Assembly: GCF_944388875.1 (NCBI RefSeq) | Contig: NZ_CALXKQ010000010.1 | Location: 1 to 64,000 of the forward strand | Length of the DNA: 64,000 nucleotides | Source: an uncultured Brachyspira sp. | GTDB taxonomy: Bacteria > Spirochaetota > Brachyspiria > Brachyspirales > Brachyspiraceae | Reading direction: 5' to 3' | Shown: positions 8,787 to 60,227 of the stretch, piece after piece | Position numbering within the stretch: position 1 is the stretch's first letter | Layout of the letters: the number at the start of each line of letters is the position of its first letter | The notes under the pieces: generated by a model | Seen by the model: only the letters and a program-made list of their open reading frames with translations | The model's database searches: none | Told to the model about the DNA's origin: nothing | Program-made: the position numbers and the translations under genes

Positions 8787-10049
8787 TTACAGTTTATCAA
8801 TATTGGAATATCTATTTACAATCTCAGCAACTTTATCTATAGTATCAATACTTTCTCTATTTATCAAAAACTCTCTTCCTATGTTTAAACATATCCAATC
8901 AAGTCTAGCCCTCTCTTTTAAATCCTGAATGCCTGAAATATCTTTATTTTTTGCAAGCCCTAAAGTTCTTCTTATAAGCACACATCCTGCAAAACCTACA
9001 GAATCTTTGAATATTCTATTTAAAACAGTTTTAATATAATCCTCTGAATGTTTTTTTCCTTCTGGGTACTGCCAATATAAAGGGTTAGTTTCTTCTAAAT
9101 GTTTTTTCCATAGAGATTCAAATTTACTTAAAGTTCCTGTAAGCATATATTTAGCTGTATCAAAAAGCCATTTTCTATACTCTATAGAATTTGTACCTAA
9201 TCTTTTTTGATGATACTCATGCGAAATATAAGCCATAAAGAAATTAGCTATAGCCTTTCCAATATCAAACCCTATAGGACCGTAAAATGCAAACTCTGGG
9301 TCTATAATATATGTTTCTTCTTCATTACCCATAAAACTTCCCAAATGAAAATCTCCATGCAATAATGCTTCTGTCTTAGTCATAAATGCATATTTCATCT
9401 CTGCCGCTGCTGTTTTAAGTTTTGAATCTCTTTGAAATTTTTTAACTTCATCTATATTTAATTCATCATAAAATACATTAGTATCATTATCTTCAAAAGG
9501 ATGAGTAAAAATAAAATCTTCTGTTAAACTACATAGTTCAGCATTCATATATTCTATAACTAGAACTTTTTTAGATTTAGTATCCAAATAATAATCAGAA
9601 GTAAAAAATAAAGTATTAGATAGGAAATCTGTTAAATGTTCTGCAGCTTTAGGGAATTTTTTTCCTTCTATTATTTCTCCCCTTAAAACCTTATGATTAT
9701 TTAAATTCTGCATTATAACAAGGCACATATCATCAGAATCATAATATATCTTAGGAACAAGATTAGGACATAACCTGTATTGCTCCTTAAGGGTTTTTAT
9801 CTCTATTTTCATCCTGTCTTTTTCCAAAGGATAACTTTCTCCAACGCATCTTAAAAAGGGTACAGACTGTTTTAAAATTACAGTTTCTTTATCATTATTT
9901 TTATTTGTAATGCTGTATACAAAATTTAAATTACCATCTCCAATTTCAGTTATTATTAAGTCATCAAAGCTGGAGAATATATTTTTCATTTCATCTATGG
10001 TTTTTAAATAGTCTATTATAGTATCTATACTTAGTTGTTTATAAGCCAT
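8787..10049 (-). CDS. mtnK: S-methyl-5-thioribose kinase
   Basis: 420 residues, about family length. It phosphorylates 5-methylthioribose on C1 with ATP in methionine salvage. The aminoglycoside-phosphotransferase-like fold shows the Gly-rich GDGNLNFVY loop near residue 37, the catalytic LLHGDFHLGS segment near residue 232, and IDPEFAFYGPIGFDIG with the metal-binding Asp. It lies three bases after mtnA with a GGAG site in the gap, so the two are co-translated. Downstream salvage enzymes (MtnB, MtnC, MtnD) are not in the window. Because the operon also holds an ArsS-like protein, the kinase may act on a 5-modified ribose from that pathway; this is inference. Confidence 0.9.
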   Translation of the reverse strand: MAYKQLSIDTIIDYLKTIDEMKNIFSSFDDLIITEIGDGNLNFVYSITNKNNDKETVILKQSVPFLRCVGESYPLEKDRMKIEIKTLKEQYRLCPNLVPKIYYDSDDMCLVIMQNLNNHKVLRGEIIEGKKFPKAAEHLTDFLSNTLFFTSDYYLDTKSKKVLVIEYMNAELCSLTEDFIFTHPFEDNDTNVFYDELNIDEVKKFQRDSKLKTAAAEMKYAFMTKTEALLHGDFHLGSFMGNEEETYIIDPEFAFYGPIGFDIGKAIANFFMAYISHEYHQKRLGTNSIEYRKWLFDTAKYMLTGTLSKFESLWKKHLEETNPLYWQYPEGKKHSEDYIKTVLNRIFKDSVGFAGCVLIRRTLGLAKNKDISGIQDLKERARLDWICLNIGREFLINRESIDTIDKVAEIVNRYSNIDKL

Positions 10050-50767: not shown

Positions 50768-51283
50768 ATGATAAAATATATACCAAAAAACAAAATAGAA
50801 TTAAGAAGTTTGATAGAAAACAATAATATATATTTAGGCGATATTGATACTTCTTTAATAACTGATATGTCTATGCTTTTTGATAAGCCTAATTTTGCAT
50901 GTTTTGAAGGTTCTTACAGTGAATATGAAAATTATATTATAAGATTAGATTTTTCAGGTATAGAGAAATGGAATACTTCCAAGGTTTTAACAATGAAATC
51001 AATGTTTCATAGTATAAAAAATTTCAATATAAATATTAATGATTGGGACGTTTCTAATGTAATAGATATGAGCTATATGTTTTATGGAGCTGAAAATTTT
51101 AATCGGTCTTTAGATAAATGGAATGTATGCAATGTAAAATCTATGATATGCATGTTTAAAAATGCTGTAAATTTCAATCAGGATTTGAATGCTTGGAAAA
51201 TAAATAAAGAAGCTGATATTAAAGATATTTTTATTAATACATCTCTTAAAAAATTTCCTATATGGTACGGGAAATTTAATTAA
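50768..51283 (+). CDS. BspA-like (DUF285) repeat protein
   Basis: 171 residues. Repeats of the DUF285 type: ITDMSMLFD, WNTSKVLTMKSMFHSIKNFN, WDVSNVIDMSYMFYGAENFN and WNVCNVKSMICMFKNAVNFN. Such repeats build surface proteins in Brachyspira, Mycoplasma and Bacteroidetes relatives. No signal peptide is seen, so it may remain cytoplasmic or be a fragment. It starts four bases after scpA without a clear ribosome site, suggesting translational coupling. Confidence 0.8.
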   Translation: MIKYIPKNKIELRSLIENNNIYLGDIDTSLITDMSMLFDKPNFACFEGSYSEYENYIIRLDFSGIEKWNTSKVLTMKSMFHSIKNFNININDWDVSNVIDMSYMFYGAENFNRSLDKWNVCNVKSMICMFKNAVNFNQDLNAWKINKEADIKDIFINTSLKKFPIWYGKFN

Positions 51284-55016: not shown

Positions 55017-55526
55017 TTATCTAAAATAACTATATAGTGATAAATACATAAATACTTGTATTATAATTAATAAAGATGCCGATATTAAAACTAATTTATT
55101 TTCTTTTACTATTGAAATACAATAAAATAAAAATATATAAAATAAATATATTATAAGAGCATATAAATACATTGCGTCCTTTATTTTTAGAGTATATTTT
55201 ATATTATCAATTTTTTCTGTATCTATAGCTTTATCAGTTATAAATGTACCGAAAGGGCTTCCTTTTTTACCAATTTTAATATTTTTTATAAAGTTATTAT
55301 CATTAATGGTTTTTTGAATATCTAAATATACATCATAAATATCACTATTTCTAAAAACTTTATCATAATAGCTTATTCTAAAAGTATATGTATTATTTTC
55401 AATTAGTTTTATTTTATTTAAATATCCAGTTCTAGAAATACTTCCTAAATATGACAATACCATTAATAATATTACTATAAATAATAGTGGAAGCAAGCAC
55501 ATAAAAATAGTTTTTTTATTTTTCAT
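55017..55526 (-). CDS. Hypothetical membrane protein with periplasmic domain
   Basis: 169 residues; family not recognised. One membrane helix at residues 7-27, a soluble middle of about 80 residues (YTFRISYYDKVFRNSDIYDVY), and two helices at the end (about 117-137 and 143-165). No ribosome site is obvious before the ATG. It sits upstream of the riboswitch operon in the same direction but has its own end about 30 bases before the leader hairpin. Confidence 0.6.
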   Translation of the reverse strand: MKNKKTIFMCLLPLLFIVILLMVLSYLGSISRTGYLNKIKLIENNTYTFRISYYDKVFRNSDIYDVYLDIQKTINDNNFIKNIKIGKKGSPFGTFITDKAIDTEKIDNIKYTLKIKDAMYLYALIIYLFYIFLFYCISIVKENKLVLISASLLIIIQVFMYLSLYSYFR

Positions 55527-55606
55527 AAATTAAGTCCATTTTAGATATTGAATCATAATGTACATGATAAATAAAAAAAATCAAGTATTTTTAATTGATT
55601 TTTATT

Positions 55607-55615
55607 TGTTATAAT
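55607..55615 (+). promoter_or_regulatory. Extended -10 promoter upstream of MBOAT operon
   Basis: TGT-TATAAT (-10 at 55610-55615) with a weak -35. Transcription from here would place the AAACC repeat in the 5' leader. Confidence 0.45.
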
Positions 55616-55651
55616 ATATAATAACTTTCTATCATGAGTATTTGTATATTT

Positions 55652-55694
55652 AAACCAAACCAAACCAAACCAAACCAAACCAAACCAAACCAAA
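55652..55694 (+). repeat. Pentanucleotide tract (AAACC)8
   Basis: Eight perfect AAACC units (55652-55691) plus AAA, then TAGAATAGAAT. It lies 43 bases before the MBOAT start codon. Such tracts change length by slipped-strand replication and, in a promoter or leader, can switch expression. Confidence 0.92.
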
Positions 55695-55736
55695 TAGAAT
55701 AGAATACTTTTGCATTTTTTTTCTGGGAGTTAAATA

Positions 55737-57212
55737 ATGTTATTTAATTCCACAGAGTTTATGATATTTTTTCCAATAACATTAATTTTATACTGGATAT
55801 TTCCAAAAAAGTACAGATATATTTGTTTATTTATAGCAAGTTATACATTTTATATGTTTTGGAATCCTAAATATGCTCTTCTTATGGGTACTTCTACTAT
55901 AGTAACTTTTTTAAGCGGTGTATTAATAGAGAAATTAAAATATAAAAGAACTGTTGTAGCATTTAGTTTTATTATCAACTTAGCAATTCTAATATTCTTC
56001 AAATATTTTGATTTTCTGCTTCAGAATATAAATATAGTTTTGTCAGCAGTAAATATACAATTAATAAATAAGCCTTTTGATATAATACTTCCAGTAGGAA
56101 TATCTTTTTATACTTTTCAGGCATTAAGTTATACTATAGATGTTTACAGAGGTGAGATAAAACCTGAAAAAAATATTATTAAGTATGCATTGTTCGTATC
56201 ATTCTTTCCACAGTTAGTTGCTGGACCTATAGAGCGTTCTAAAAATTTGCTTATTCAAATGGAGAATTTAGAAAAAATAAAAAGATTTGATTATGACAGA
56301 ATAACTGAAGGGCTAACCTTAATACTTTTCGGTTATTTTCAGAAAATGGTAATAGCAGACAGAGCAGCAATATTAGTAGATACTGTTTTTAATGGCTATT
56401 ATGAATACAACAGTATGGCTTTAATTTTGGCAGCAGTATTTTTTGCTATACAAATATACTGCGATTTTGGAAGCTACTCACTTATAGCAATAGGGACAGC
56501 TAAAGTTATGGGCATTAATTTGATGGAGAATTTTAATACCCCGTATTTTTCTAGAAGTATAAAGGAGTTCTGGGGCAGATGGCATATATCATTATCTACT
56601 TGGTTTAGAGATTACCTTTATATACCTTTAGGCGGAAATAGATGTTCAAATATAAGAAAGAGTTTTAATATATTAGTAACATTTCTAGTAAGCGGTTTAT
56701 GGCATGGAGCTAATTTTACCTTCATAGCTTGGGGAGCTATTCATGGTATATTTCACATAATAGAAGAACAGTTAAAACATATAAAAGAAAAATATTTAAA
56801 TAGATTCAAAATAAAAACAAATGCTTTCAGTTTTGCCTTAATAGAAATAATAATTACTTTTATCATAGTAGATTTAGCTTGGATATTTTTCAGGGCGGAA
56901 ACTATACATGATGCCATACATTATATAAAAAGAATATTTACAAGAATAGATTTATGGACATTGTTTGACGGTACTTTATATAGTTTAGGATTAGATATTT
57001 TTGAGATGAACATTTTAATCATAGCGTTATTCATACTGATATCTTTTGATTTAATAAATTATATAAGAAAAGAAAGCATATTTGTATTTCTAAGTAAACA
57101 GAATCTATATTTCAGATGGTTTGTTATGTTATTTTTGATTTTTTACATAATTGTTTACGGTAAGTACGGAGCAGGCTTTGACCCTAAACAGTTTATATAT
57201 TTCCAATTTTAA
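55737..57212 (+). CDS. MBOAT family membrane O-acyltransferase 1 (AlgI/DltB-like)
   Basis: 491 residues, about ten membrane helices. It would carry acyl groups across the inner membrane onto an extracytoplasmic glycan. Signatures: FNSTEFMIFFPITLILYWIFPKK, ILPVGISFYTFQALSYTIDVYRG, VAGPIERSKN, EFWGRWHISLSTWFRDYLYIPLGGN and GLWHGANFTFIAWG with the catalytic His at residue 323. GGGAG precedes the ATG. An SGNH-type partner follows 15 bases later, the usual AlgI/AlgJ or DltB/DltD layout. The (AAACC)8 tract just upstream suggests phase-variable expression. A second copy lies at 58752. Confidence 0.9.
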   Translation: MLFNSTEFMIFFPITLILYWIFPKKYRYICLFIASYTFYMFWNPKYALLMGTSTIVTFLSGVLIEKLKYKRTVVAFSFIINLAILIFFKYFDFLLQNINIVLSAVNIQLINKPFDIILPVGISFYTFQALSYTIDVYRGEIKPEKNIIKYALFVSFFPQLVAGPIERSKNLLIQMENLEKIKRFDYDRITEGLTLILFGYFQKMVIADRAAILVDTVFNGYYEYNSMALILAAVFFAIQIYCDFGSYSLIAIGTAKVMGINLMENFNTPYFSRSIKEFWGRWHISLSTWFRDYLYIPLGGNRCSNIRKSFNILVTFLVSGLWHGANFTFIAWGAIHGIFHIIEEQLKHIKEKYLNRFKIKTNAFSFALIEIIITFIIVDLAWIFFRAETIHDAIHYIKRIFTRIDLWTLFDGTLYSLGLDIFEMNILIIALFILISFDLINYIRKESIFVFLSKQNLYFRWFVMLFLIFYIIVYGKYGAGFDPKQFIYFQF

Positions 57213-57227
57213 TAATGTGAGTTATTT

Positions 57228-58643
57228 ATGAAAATAAAAATTATAAAGATAATTTCTTTTGTATTGATATTTTTTGTACTGCTTTATGCTGTAAACAATG
57301 TATTAAAATTTAAATATTTTTATCTATTTGATTCATTTTATAAATTAAAAAATAATTCTATAGATGTTCTATTATTAGGAAGCAGTCATTCTTATGTAAA
57401 TATAAATTCTTTTTATTTATACAAACTATATGGTATATCTTCATTTAATTTTGGAGGTAGTATACAGCCTTTATGGAATACTTATTTTTATTTAAAAGAA
57501 GCTTTAAAAAAACAAAAACCTAAATTAATAGTTTTAGATGCATTAACAACAACACTTAATGATGAATATGCAGATTATTCAGGAATTATAAAAAATAATT
57601 ATGAACTAAAGTTTTCTTTTGATAAAATAAATAGCATAATTATAAGTTCACCTAAAAATATATGTATCTTTTTTTTAAATCCTTTATACCAATACCATAA
57701 TAGATATTCTTCTCTTACTTTCGAAGATTTTCTTAGCTATAGAGGTAGAGAAAAATACAAATATTATAAAGGTTATGTTCTTTTTTACCGTATTAGCAGT
57801 AATACAAAACCTAATGTTAATTATATTACCAATGAAATAAGCTTATACCCAAAGATAGAGAAGTATTACAGAATGGTAATAGAGTTAGCAAAAAATAATA
57901 ATATACCTATTTTAATCGTAAAATCTCCATATTCTCTTTATAATGAATATGATCAAAAAAAATATAATATGGCAAAAAAAATTGCAAAAGAATATAATGT
58001 TCCTTTTATTAATTTAAACTATAATTATGATGATTATAATTTAGATTTTTCAAAAGATTTTTATGATCAATCTGGACATTTAAATTATAAAGGAGCAGAA
58101 AAGCTTGCAAAATATTTAGGCAAATATTTAAAAGAGAATTATGACTTACCTGATAGAAGAGGTGATCCTAAATATTATTCTTGGGAAATGAATGCTAAAT
58201 ATCAAGATAAAGAGATTTATAATTTTGAACTAACAAACTTAGCAAATTTAAATGAATACATAGAAAAAGTAAAAAATGCTGATGATTATATTATAGGTAT
58301 TACTATGCTTGGCAATTATCAAAAAAATGATAATATTATTCAAAACATAGCATCAAAGTTTAATATTAATAACATATATTTACAAAATTCTTCTTATGTT
58401 ATAGATAATAATAATCTTATATACTCCTCTAAAGGCTCTAGTAATTATTTATTTTATAAAGAAATAGGAAATTATACTGATTTGGTTGTTAATAATGAAA
58501 AACTATCTATAAATAGAACAAATTATATAAAATCAACTAATGGCATAAACATGGTCATTTATGATAAGTTTACCGAAGAAATAGTTGATAATATATATTT
58601 GGAATATGATGATAATTCTATTAATCCAACAATTAAAAGATAA
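57228..58643 (+). CDS. SGNH-like acyltransferase partner 1 (AlgJ/DltD-like)
   Basis: 471 residues. An N-terminal membrane anchor is followed by an SGNH-type domain: VLLLGSSHSYVNIN (Ser in block I), FNFGGSIQPLWNT, PKLIVLDAL, and block V DQSGHLNYKGAEKLAKYL with Asp and His. From about residue 310 (DLPDRRGDPKYYSW) a second domain begins, with DYIIGITMLGNY and NGINMVIYDKFTEEIVD strands reminiscent of ILEI-like glycan-binding modules; the match is weak. Together with the MBOAT protein it should O-acylate a surface polysaccharide or lipid-linked sugar. Confidence 0.8.
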   Translation: MKIKIIKIISFVLIFFVLLYAVNNVLKFKYFYLFDSFYKLKNNSIDVLLLGSSHSYVNINSFYLYKLYGISSFNFGGSIQPLWNTYFYLKEALKKQKPKLIVLDALTTTLNDEYADYSGIIKNNYELKFSFDKINSIIISSPKNICIFFLNPLYQYHNRYSSLTFEDFLSYRGREKYKYYKGYVLFYRISSNTKPNVNYITNEISLYPKIEKYYRMVIELAKNNNIPILIVKSPYSLYNEYDQKKYNMAKKIAKEYNVPFINLNYNYDDYNLDFSKDFYDQSGHLNYKGAEKLAKYLGKYLKENYDLPDRRGDPKYYSWEMNAKYQDKEIYNFELTNLANLNEYIEKVKNADDYIIGITMLGNYQKNDNIIQNIASKFNINNIYLQNSSYVIDNNNLIYSSKGSSNYLFYKEIGNYTDLVVNNEKLSINRTNYIKSTNGINMVIYDKFTEEIVDNIYLEYDDNSINPTIKR

Positions 58644-58751: not shown

Positions 58752-60227
58752 ATGCTGTTTAATTCTACGGATTTTTTAATATTTTTTCCTATAACGCTTA
58801 TATTATATTGGATATTTCCAAAAAAATTAAGATATATATGTCTTTTCATAGCCAGTTATATATTCTATATGTTTTGGAATCCTAAATATGCATTATTAAT
58901 GGGAACTTCTACTGTAGTAACTTTTTTAAGCGGTATATTAATAGAAAAATTAAAATATAAAAGAATAGTTGTAGCTTTCAGCTTTATAATAAATATTGCA
59001 ATACTTGTGTTTTTTAAGTATTTTGACTTTTTGCTATTAAATATAAATATGATTTTATCAGCATTAAATATAAGATTAATAGAAAAGCCTTTTGATGTTA
59101 TTTTACCAGTAGGAATATCATTTTACACTTTTCAGGCATTAAGCTATACTATAGATGTTTACAGAGGAGAAATAAAGTCTGAAAAAAATATTATTAAGTA
59201 TGCATTGTTCGTATCATTTTTTCCTCAGTTAGTGGCAGGTCCGATAGAGCGTTCAAAACATTTACTCGGACAAATTCAGAATATGGATAAAATAAAAAGA
59301 TTCGATTATCAAAGAATAACTGAAGGACTTATTTTAATGCTTTTCGGCTATTTTCAGAAAATGGTAATAGCAGACAGAGCAGCAATACTAGTAGATACTG
59401 TTTTTAATAGATATTATATTTATAACTCAAGCGAATTGTTATTATCAGCATTACTTTTTGCGGTGCAGATATACTGTGATTTTGCAAGCTATTCACTTAT
59501 AGCAATAGGAACGGCTAAAGTTATGGGAATAGATTTAATGGAGAATTTTAATACACCTTATTTTGCTAGAAGCATAAAAGAGTTTTGGGGAAGATGGCAT
59601 ATATCATTATCAACTTGGTTTAGGGATTATCTTTATATACCTTTAGGCGGAAACAGATGCTCAAAATTAAGAAGAAGTTTTAATATATTATTAACATTTC
59701 TAGTAAGCGGACTCTGGCATGGAGCTAATTTTACTTTTATAGCTTGGGGTGCTATTCATGGAATATTTTACTTAATAGAAGATATTACTTCAAAGTTTAG
59801 GAATAATGTTTTAAATAAATTTGGCGTGAAGGTAAAAAGTTTCAGCTTTAAACTTCTTGAAGTAATTATTACATTTATAATAGTAGATTTGGCTTGGATA
59901 TTTTTTAGGGCAGAAACTATACATGACGCTTTTTACTATATAGAGAGAATGTTTACTAAAATAGATTTATGGCGATTGTTTGACGGCTCCTTATACAAAT
60001 TGGGATTAGACAGTTTTGAAATGAATATACTTATAATATCTTTGATAGTGTTATTTTTAGTTGATGTTATTAAGTATATAAAGAAAGAAACTATTTATGA
60101 GTTTTTAAAAAATCAATGTTTGTATTTCAGATGGGCTGTAATATTTTTCTTGTTATTTTTTATAATCATATACGGCAAATACGGTGCAGGCTTTGATCCT
60201 AAGCAGTTTATATATTTTCAGTTTTAG
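58752..60227 (+). CDS. MBOAT family membrane O-acyltransferase 2 (AlgI/DltB-like)
   Basis: 491 residues, same length as the copy at 55737 and nearly identical over most of the chain, including EFWGRWHISLSTWFRDYLYI and GLWHGANFTFIAWG. Differences cluster in the loops around residues 205-225 and in the C-terminal third. No repeat tract precedes it; about 108 AT-rich bases separate it from the first SGNH gene and no clear ribosome site is seen. Tandem duplication of the module followed by divergence of the partner proteins is likely. Confidence 0.9.
   Translation: MLFNSTDFLIFFPITLILYWIFPKKLRYICLFIASYIFYMFWNPKYALLMGTSTVVTFLSGILIEKLKYKRIVVAFSFIINIAILVFFKYFDFLLLNINMILSALNIRLIEKPFDVILPVGISFYTFQALSYTIDVYRGEIKSEKNIIKYALFVSFFPQLVAGPIERSKHLLGQIQNMDKIKRFDYQRITEGLILMLFGYFQKMVIADRAAILVDTVFNRYYIYNSSELLLSALLFAVQIYCDFASYSLIAIGTAKVMGIDLMENFNTPYFARSIKEFWGRWHISLSTWFRDYLYIPLGGNRCSKLRRSFNILLTFLVSGLWHGANFTFIAWGAIHGIFYLIEDITSKFRNNVLNKFGVKVKSFSFKLLEVIITFIIVDLAWIFFRAETIHDAFYYIERMFTKIDLWRLFDGSLYKLGLDSFEMNILIISLIVLFLVDVIKYIKKETIYEFLKNQCLYFRWAVIFFLLFFIIIYGKYGAGFDPKQFIYFQF

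Follow-up and report, generated by a model that had tools for sequence, protein, structure and literature searches.

A length-variable AAACC array upstream of an acyltransferase gene of Brachyspira as part of a candidate phase-variable leader reading frame

Introduction

The classical SSR contingency genes are lic and mod of Haemophilus influenzae, in which the array is located within the open reading frame (ORF). For porA a promoter- or repressor-spacing SSR switch is known, and the AGAT repeats of Moraxella uspA2 are reported to act in the 5'-UTR without translation of a leader. Translational coupling via an occluded start comprises a hairpin that holds the Shine-Dalgarno sequence (SD) and the start, and an upstream ORF that ends at the start codon.

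A promoter- or repressor-spacing switch was also described for nadA of Neisseria (PMC2791445), and the leader of Helicobacter pylori tlpB carries a G-repeat which acts together with the sRNA RepG (PMC8295292). The closest described systems are pil1 and pil3 of Streptococcus gallolyticus with a phase-variable leader peptide and GCAGA repeats (Danne et al. 2014, PMC3894217). The terminator mechanism of pil1 was shown by mutants, RT-PCR and variants (PMC3894217). As far as could be found, phase variation through the frame of a leader ORF is proven only at pilus loci of this one Streptococcus, and the open-licence literature searched yielded no account of phase variation by SSRs in Brachyspira.

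The Brachyspira locus described here, upstream of an MBOAT O-acyltransferase gene, has in common with pil1 a pentanucleotide array in a leader ORF, in which the number of units (n) modulo 3 sets the leader stop. In pil1 an inhibitory hairpin in front of the gene is opened by the ribosomes that translate the leader, and the same is proposed for MBOAT. Unlike in pil1, the MBOAT hairpin encloses the SD and the ATG of the gene and is no terminator, the leader ATG is near-leaderless instead of SD-led, and Brachyspira, a spirochaete, possesses many such loci with many repeat units. Non-triplet repeats, a (here proposed) frame-dependent ON/OFF state and surface glycan genes are shared with lic and mod; however, the MBOAT array lies outside the enzyme gene and in-frame stops exclude a fusion. 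As in nadA and porA the repeat tract is found upstream of a surface-related gene, but it is situated downstream of the promoter and inside the predicted transcript. A variable repeat of the mRNA leader is also present in tlpB, where it affects a surface (LPS) gene. Whereas tlpB needs a pairing sRNA, the array lacks a 15-nt complement anywhere else in this genome, and a complementary sRNA acting on the array was therefore rejected. The hairpin with SD and start and the upstream ORF ending at the start codon (TAATG) are shared with translational coupling, but here the coupling itself would be reversibly switched by a hypermutable tract.

The acyltransferase locus and its array

The window, i.e. 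the whole stretch of 64,000 nucleotides that was analysed, has its close relatives in Brachyspira (Table 1). The gene downstream of the array had been taken for an MBOAT gene in an earlier note on this DNA, in agreement with its match to PF03062 (E=2.7e-27); it is DltB-like, yet stays under the DltB cut-off. Downstream of this copy 1 come a partner with weak SGNH similarity and then a second pair of MBOAT and partner; judged by its family, copy 1 would acylate a surface component. It is 96% identical to its counterpart in B. innocens ATCC 29796. Copy 1 (at least 91% identity) is present in 8 of 26 Brachyspira genomes and is preceded by the array in all eight. Copy 2 (about 80-81%) occurs in many more genomes, and in those checked no array was found before it. 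Two relatives possess a broken copy 1, with an in-frame nonsense codon in G003 (locus L156) and a frame-disrupted stretch in G023 (L148), and the gene is therefore dispensable there; it is intact in the other species. A plasmid search gave no match. At 50768-51283 of the window an ORF of 171 aa resembles, by eye, a BspA-type repeat protein (WNTSKV and WDVSNV motifs), with no array nearby.

Table 1 Features of the MBOAT locus (positions in the window)
Feature	Position	Strand	Remarks
Promoter TTGATT-N16-TATAAT	55595..55622	+	both hexamers identical in all seven orthologues whose upstream sequence is available
Leader ORF at n=8	55634..55702	+	ATG 11 nt after TATAAT, 22 codons (MSICIF(KPNQT)...), stop TAG 55700-55702; putative translation
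(AAACC)8.6 array	55652..55694	+	without stops in any sense frame
TAGAATAG	55695..55702	+	two stops in different frames, closing two of three leader phases
TAA overlapping the MBOAT ATG (TAATG)	55735..55737	+	leader stop in the proposed ON phase (n=7, 10, 13)
16-bp hairpin around SD, MBOAT ATG in loop	55721..55757	+	predicted fold, conserved
MBOAT Shine-Dalgarno GGGAG	55725..55729	+	
MBOAT O-acyltransferase copy 1 (array-linked)	55737..57212	+	
Weakly SGNH/GDSL-like partner protein	57228..58643	+	PF13472 below cut-off
MBOAT copy 2 (comparison gene)	58752..60227	+	without array or start hairpin

The earlier note had reported a perfect eight-unit pentanucleotide as a candidate phase-variation switch and had let it span 55652-55737. 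The eight units are indeed perfect over 55652-55691, with 8.6 units counted to 55694; the given start is that of the array, but the given end is the start codon of the gene, the last repeat base being 42 nt away from the MBOAT ATG (55737). The sequence TAGAATAGAATA follows directly 3' of the array. Among the 5-bp tandem arrays of the window this one is the strongest, and a search of the genome found AAACC arrays of at least three units only once, before MBOAT.

The unit number is far from invariant among the relatives. The seven complete orthologues all differ, with 8, 10, 11, 12, 13, 16 and 18 units; in the eighth the contig starts within the array, and its count is incomplete. The genomes G017 and G023 have upstream flanks with 95.7% identity and arrays of 57 and 83 bp, respectively. 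Mixed unit numbers within the B. innocens genome were considered from two overlapping contigs and rejected, both having 18 units and identical flanks. The locus thus shows the marks of SSR contingency loci, a perfect tract of short repeats, well in excess of chance and conserved in its position, and a unit number that differs among related genomes. Phase variation before a surface-type acyltransferase, as suggested by the earlier note, is well supported by this comparison of sequences.

The promoter TTGATT (55595), 16 nt, TATAAT (55617-55622) lies wholly upstream of the array. Since promoter-like matches are frequent by chance near the array, the case for it rests on its conservation, and its position means that the array would be transcribed. 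The extended −10 element TGTTATAAT (55607-55615) proposed before is present in this genome but degraded in most orthologues.

The leader reading frame

In five genomes an ATG is found 8 nt after TATAAT and in two, this one included, 11 nt after it. Both positions share one frame, and the ORF is open into the array in all seven. The leader ATG has no SD; leaderless initiation must therefore work, as is assumed in the model below. With n=8 the leader stops 37 nt before the MBOAT ATG and with n=9 42 nt before it, while with n=7 or 10 it reads on to TAATG (55735). Short and long frames, at least one of each, are found in all complete orthologues. In some of them two of the three phases remain open and stop at −6, −2 or +8, and the ON/OFF odds would for this reason differ between species. 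A leader-MBOAT fusion protein is ruled out by in-frame stops.

Two traits of pil1 thus recur: a non-triplet array within a leader ORF with its own start codon, whose translation is presumed here, and a frame that places the leader stop either before or within/after a hairpin. In addition, as in coupled gene pairs, the stop of the upstream ORF overlaps or adjoins the start codon, either as TAATG (n=7/10) or at the positions named for the orthologues.

The hairpin at the start codon

The start of MBOAT, TTCTGGGAGTTAAATAATGTTATTTAATTCCACAGAG, is predicted to form a 16-bp hairpin whose stem contains the SD and whose loop contains the ATG. For the region −25 to +30, folding energies lie between −13.9 and −18.0 kcal/mol in the copies with an array and between −2.8 and −4.3 kcal/mol in the paralogues without one. 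The start of copy 1 is the most stable among 22 genes of the window, and just 0.9% of synonymous recodings fold as well as the native one. Furthermore, the rare Ser codon TCC (6 of 131 Ser codons counted) is kept in every array-linked copy, whereas the array-free copies that were read carry TCT. Across eight orthologues base pairing amounts to 98.4%; two one-sided changes keep their pairs, changes at codon 2 preserving the pairing as G-U. With 13 of the 16 pairs never varying and no two-sided covariation in the eight orthologues, the support for the hairpin is conservation, not covariation. The start site is thus occluded by a predicted and conserved RNA structure, as in coupled pairs.

A terminator in the MBOAT leader was rejected: no intrinsic terminator of the kind that separates leader and gene in pil1 was found in 55500-55800, and the start-site hairpin is present instead. 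The hairpin encloses SD and ATG, so that control would be translational. Masking of the SD dependent on repeat length was rejected as well, the predicted SD pairing being nearly complete at any n from 2 to 20.

Proposed mechanism

On the basis of these features it is considered quite probable that MBOAT copy 1 is under a phase-variable leader-ORF switch acting through the start-codon hairpin. Transcription would start just upstream of the leader ATG, and ribosomes would initiate at this ATG, at or very near the 5' end of the mRNA, and translate through the AAACC array. Slipped-strand gain or loss of one unit (5 nt) within a strain would shift the leader frame. Two of the three frames, represented here by n=8 and n=9, would lead to a TAG just past the array, at a distance of 37-42 nt from the MBOAT ATG; the hairpin would stay shut and MBOAT would be OFF. 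With n=7, 10 or 13, in the remaining frame, ribosomes would traverse and open the hairpin and stop at TAATG, and re-initiation by translational coupling would turn MBOAT ON.

Pentanucleotide arrays in the genus

Pattern searches detected pentanucleotide arrays in most Brachyspira genomes (CA pattern in 24 of 26, CT pattern in 23 of 26). This genome has at least 16 array sites, and many more exist in relatives. Six of the at least 16 sites coincide with a contig end or lie no more than about 30 bp from one, as expected if arrays break the assembly. In the 48-contig assembly (G000) the ends adjoining arrays are C5:1, C8 end, C16:27, C25 end, C39 end and C42:3 (L232, L235, L238, L242, L243, L244).

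The arrays that were read comprise 55 loci from three genomes plus the MBOAT orthologues. In most of the 55 a gene starts 50-230 nt downstream on the A-rich strand. The array-linked genes tested encode FkbM methyltransferases, glycosyltransferases of families 9 and 11, another MBOAT and an FrhB-like protein. Homologues of the FkbM-type methyltransferase in relatives have AAACC (G002) or AAGTC (G004, G008) arrays with a similar leader type.

With classes and thresholds chosen while viewing the data, and in tests that are not fully independent because some arrays are paralogous, an open ATG within 60 nt upstream was found at 48 of 53 arrays (26 expected from shuffles). The succession of a TATAAT-like −10 element, 5-9 nt and an ATG is present at 14 of 48 non-redundant arrays versus 2.5 expected (maximum 7 in 300 shuffles); at other arrays an SD precedes the leader ATG. 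At 27 of 51 arrays two frames are closed within 25 nt and the third is open for at least 55 nt (9.9 in shuffles, maximum 20), a pattern seen on the antisense side in 7 of 49. The longest frame ends within −15 to +20 of the gene start in 21 of 43 arrays (6.4 expected, maximum 13). Start-site hairpins of −10 kcal/mol or below occur in 7 of 21 such genes, a subset picked by this last test, and in 1 of 66 controls (Fisher p=1.3e-4). Terminator-like hairpins were found at 8 of 42 arrays (1.2 expected), and at L231, L234, L241, L244 and L248, which in this respect resemble pil1, the long frame ends inside such a hairpin. The other arrays form a mixed set, with terminators at some, fusion to the gene at others and a few that belong to neither class.

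What the family would have in common is an inhibitory hairpin that ribosomes on the leader reach and open, or fail to reach, depending on n modulo 3. The target would vary, being the start site at MBOAT and an apparent terminator elsewhere, with a few open frames entering the gene. It is cautiously favoured that pentanucleotide leader ORFs, many with a near-leaderless AUG, switch glycosyltransferase, methyltransferase, acyltransferase and other genes throughout the genus via ribosome passage over a hairpin at the start site or terminator, and that the MBOAT form is a phase-variable translational coupling in place of transcription attenuation.

The leader-frame logic would thus recur many times in spirochaete genomes with many unit types, and here with a translational, not a transcriptional, target. 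If this is true, the ON/OFF states of surface-related genes could be predicted straight from a Brachyspira genome sequence, assembly breaks at array sites would be accounted for, and a route to surface heterogeneity would exist in this genus, some species of which live in the intestine of pigs and people. Leaderless translation of leaders would also become testable.

Alternative explanations

The array could act as a graded element of 5'-UTR length or ribosome standby which influences mRNA stability or ribosome access, with an untranslated leader. It would lie inside the transcript if the upstream promoter is used, and its A/C tract is predicted to be unpaired at every n. However, the predicted SD pairing is unaffected by n, and the open leader ATGs and the frame ending at the gene start, both found genus-wide, are left unexplained, so that this possibility is regarded as unlikely.

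Quite improbable is an inverted repeat at the start codon that serves as a protein-binding operator, merely spaced from the promoter by the array. The element is a long imperfect and strictly conserved palindrome, but it covers exactly the SD and the first codons, the codon 2 changes preserve G-U pairs, which matter to RNA and not to a DNA operator, and start hairpins of differing sequence are found at other arrays.

The broken copies of G003 and G023 would fit a neutral or decaying microsatellite without regulatory role. This reading is nevertheless very doubtful, as the array is retained at one place in eight genomes and arrays are repeatedly found 5' of genes, where frames and hairpins are not random.

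The earlier note had considered either a leader or a spacing effect and, for the latter, a switch in which the repeat number sets the distance between TTGTAT (55642) and TAGAAT; the leader effect is now favoured. The spacing switch is highly improbable and was rejected on conservation evidence, because both hexamers, although present here as written, are not conserved (TAGAAT is TAAAAT in G023, and TTGTAT is missing from G018, G019 and G011), because 8-18 units put the spacing far above 17 when two units are required, and because slips of a single unit would not flip it; moreover, the upstream promoter is better conserved, and the array lies neither between nor upstream of its elements. Frame-dependent opening of the hairpin, which the earlier note had not seen, is the likelier mechanism, and it differs from the spacing switch in its prediction that MBOAT would turn ON once a single unit instead of six is lost (8 to 7).

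Further array loci

The 2.5-Mb genome G022 (L256-L284) is unusually dense in arrays of many units (AAAGC, ACACT, AAGGC, AGAGC and others), several of which precede paralogous lipoprotein-like genes having a common leader. At L254 (1518-1576; G016:C5, about 9818-9875) a CAGAC array is located in the 5' end of a DNA methyltransferase-like ORF, by appearance a classical in-ORF phase-variable modification gene of the H. influenzae type. In another family of the phylum, an ORF that precedes a lipoprotein-like gene contains (AAACC)8 (L165; G087:C53, about 180374-180413); this array may represent an independent instance of such a design outside Brachyspira.
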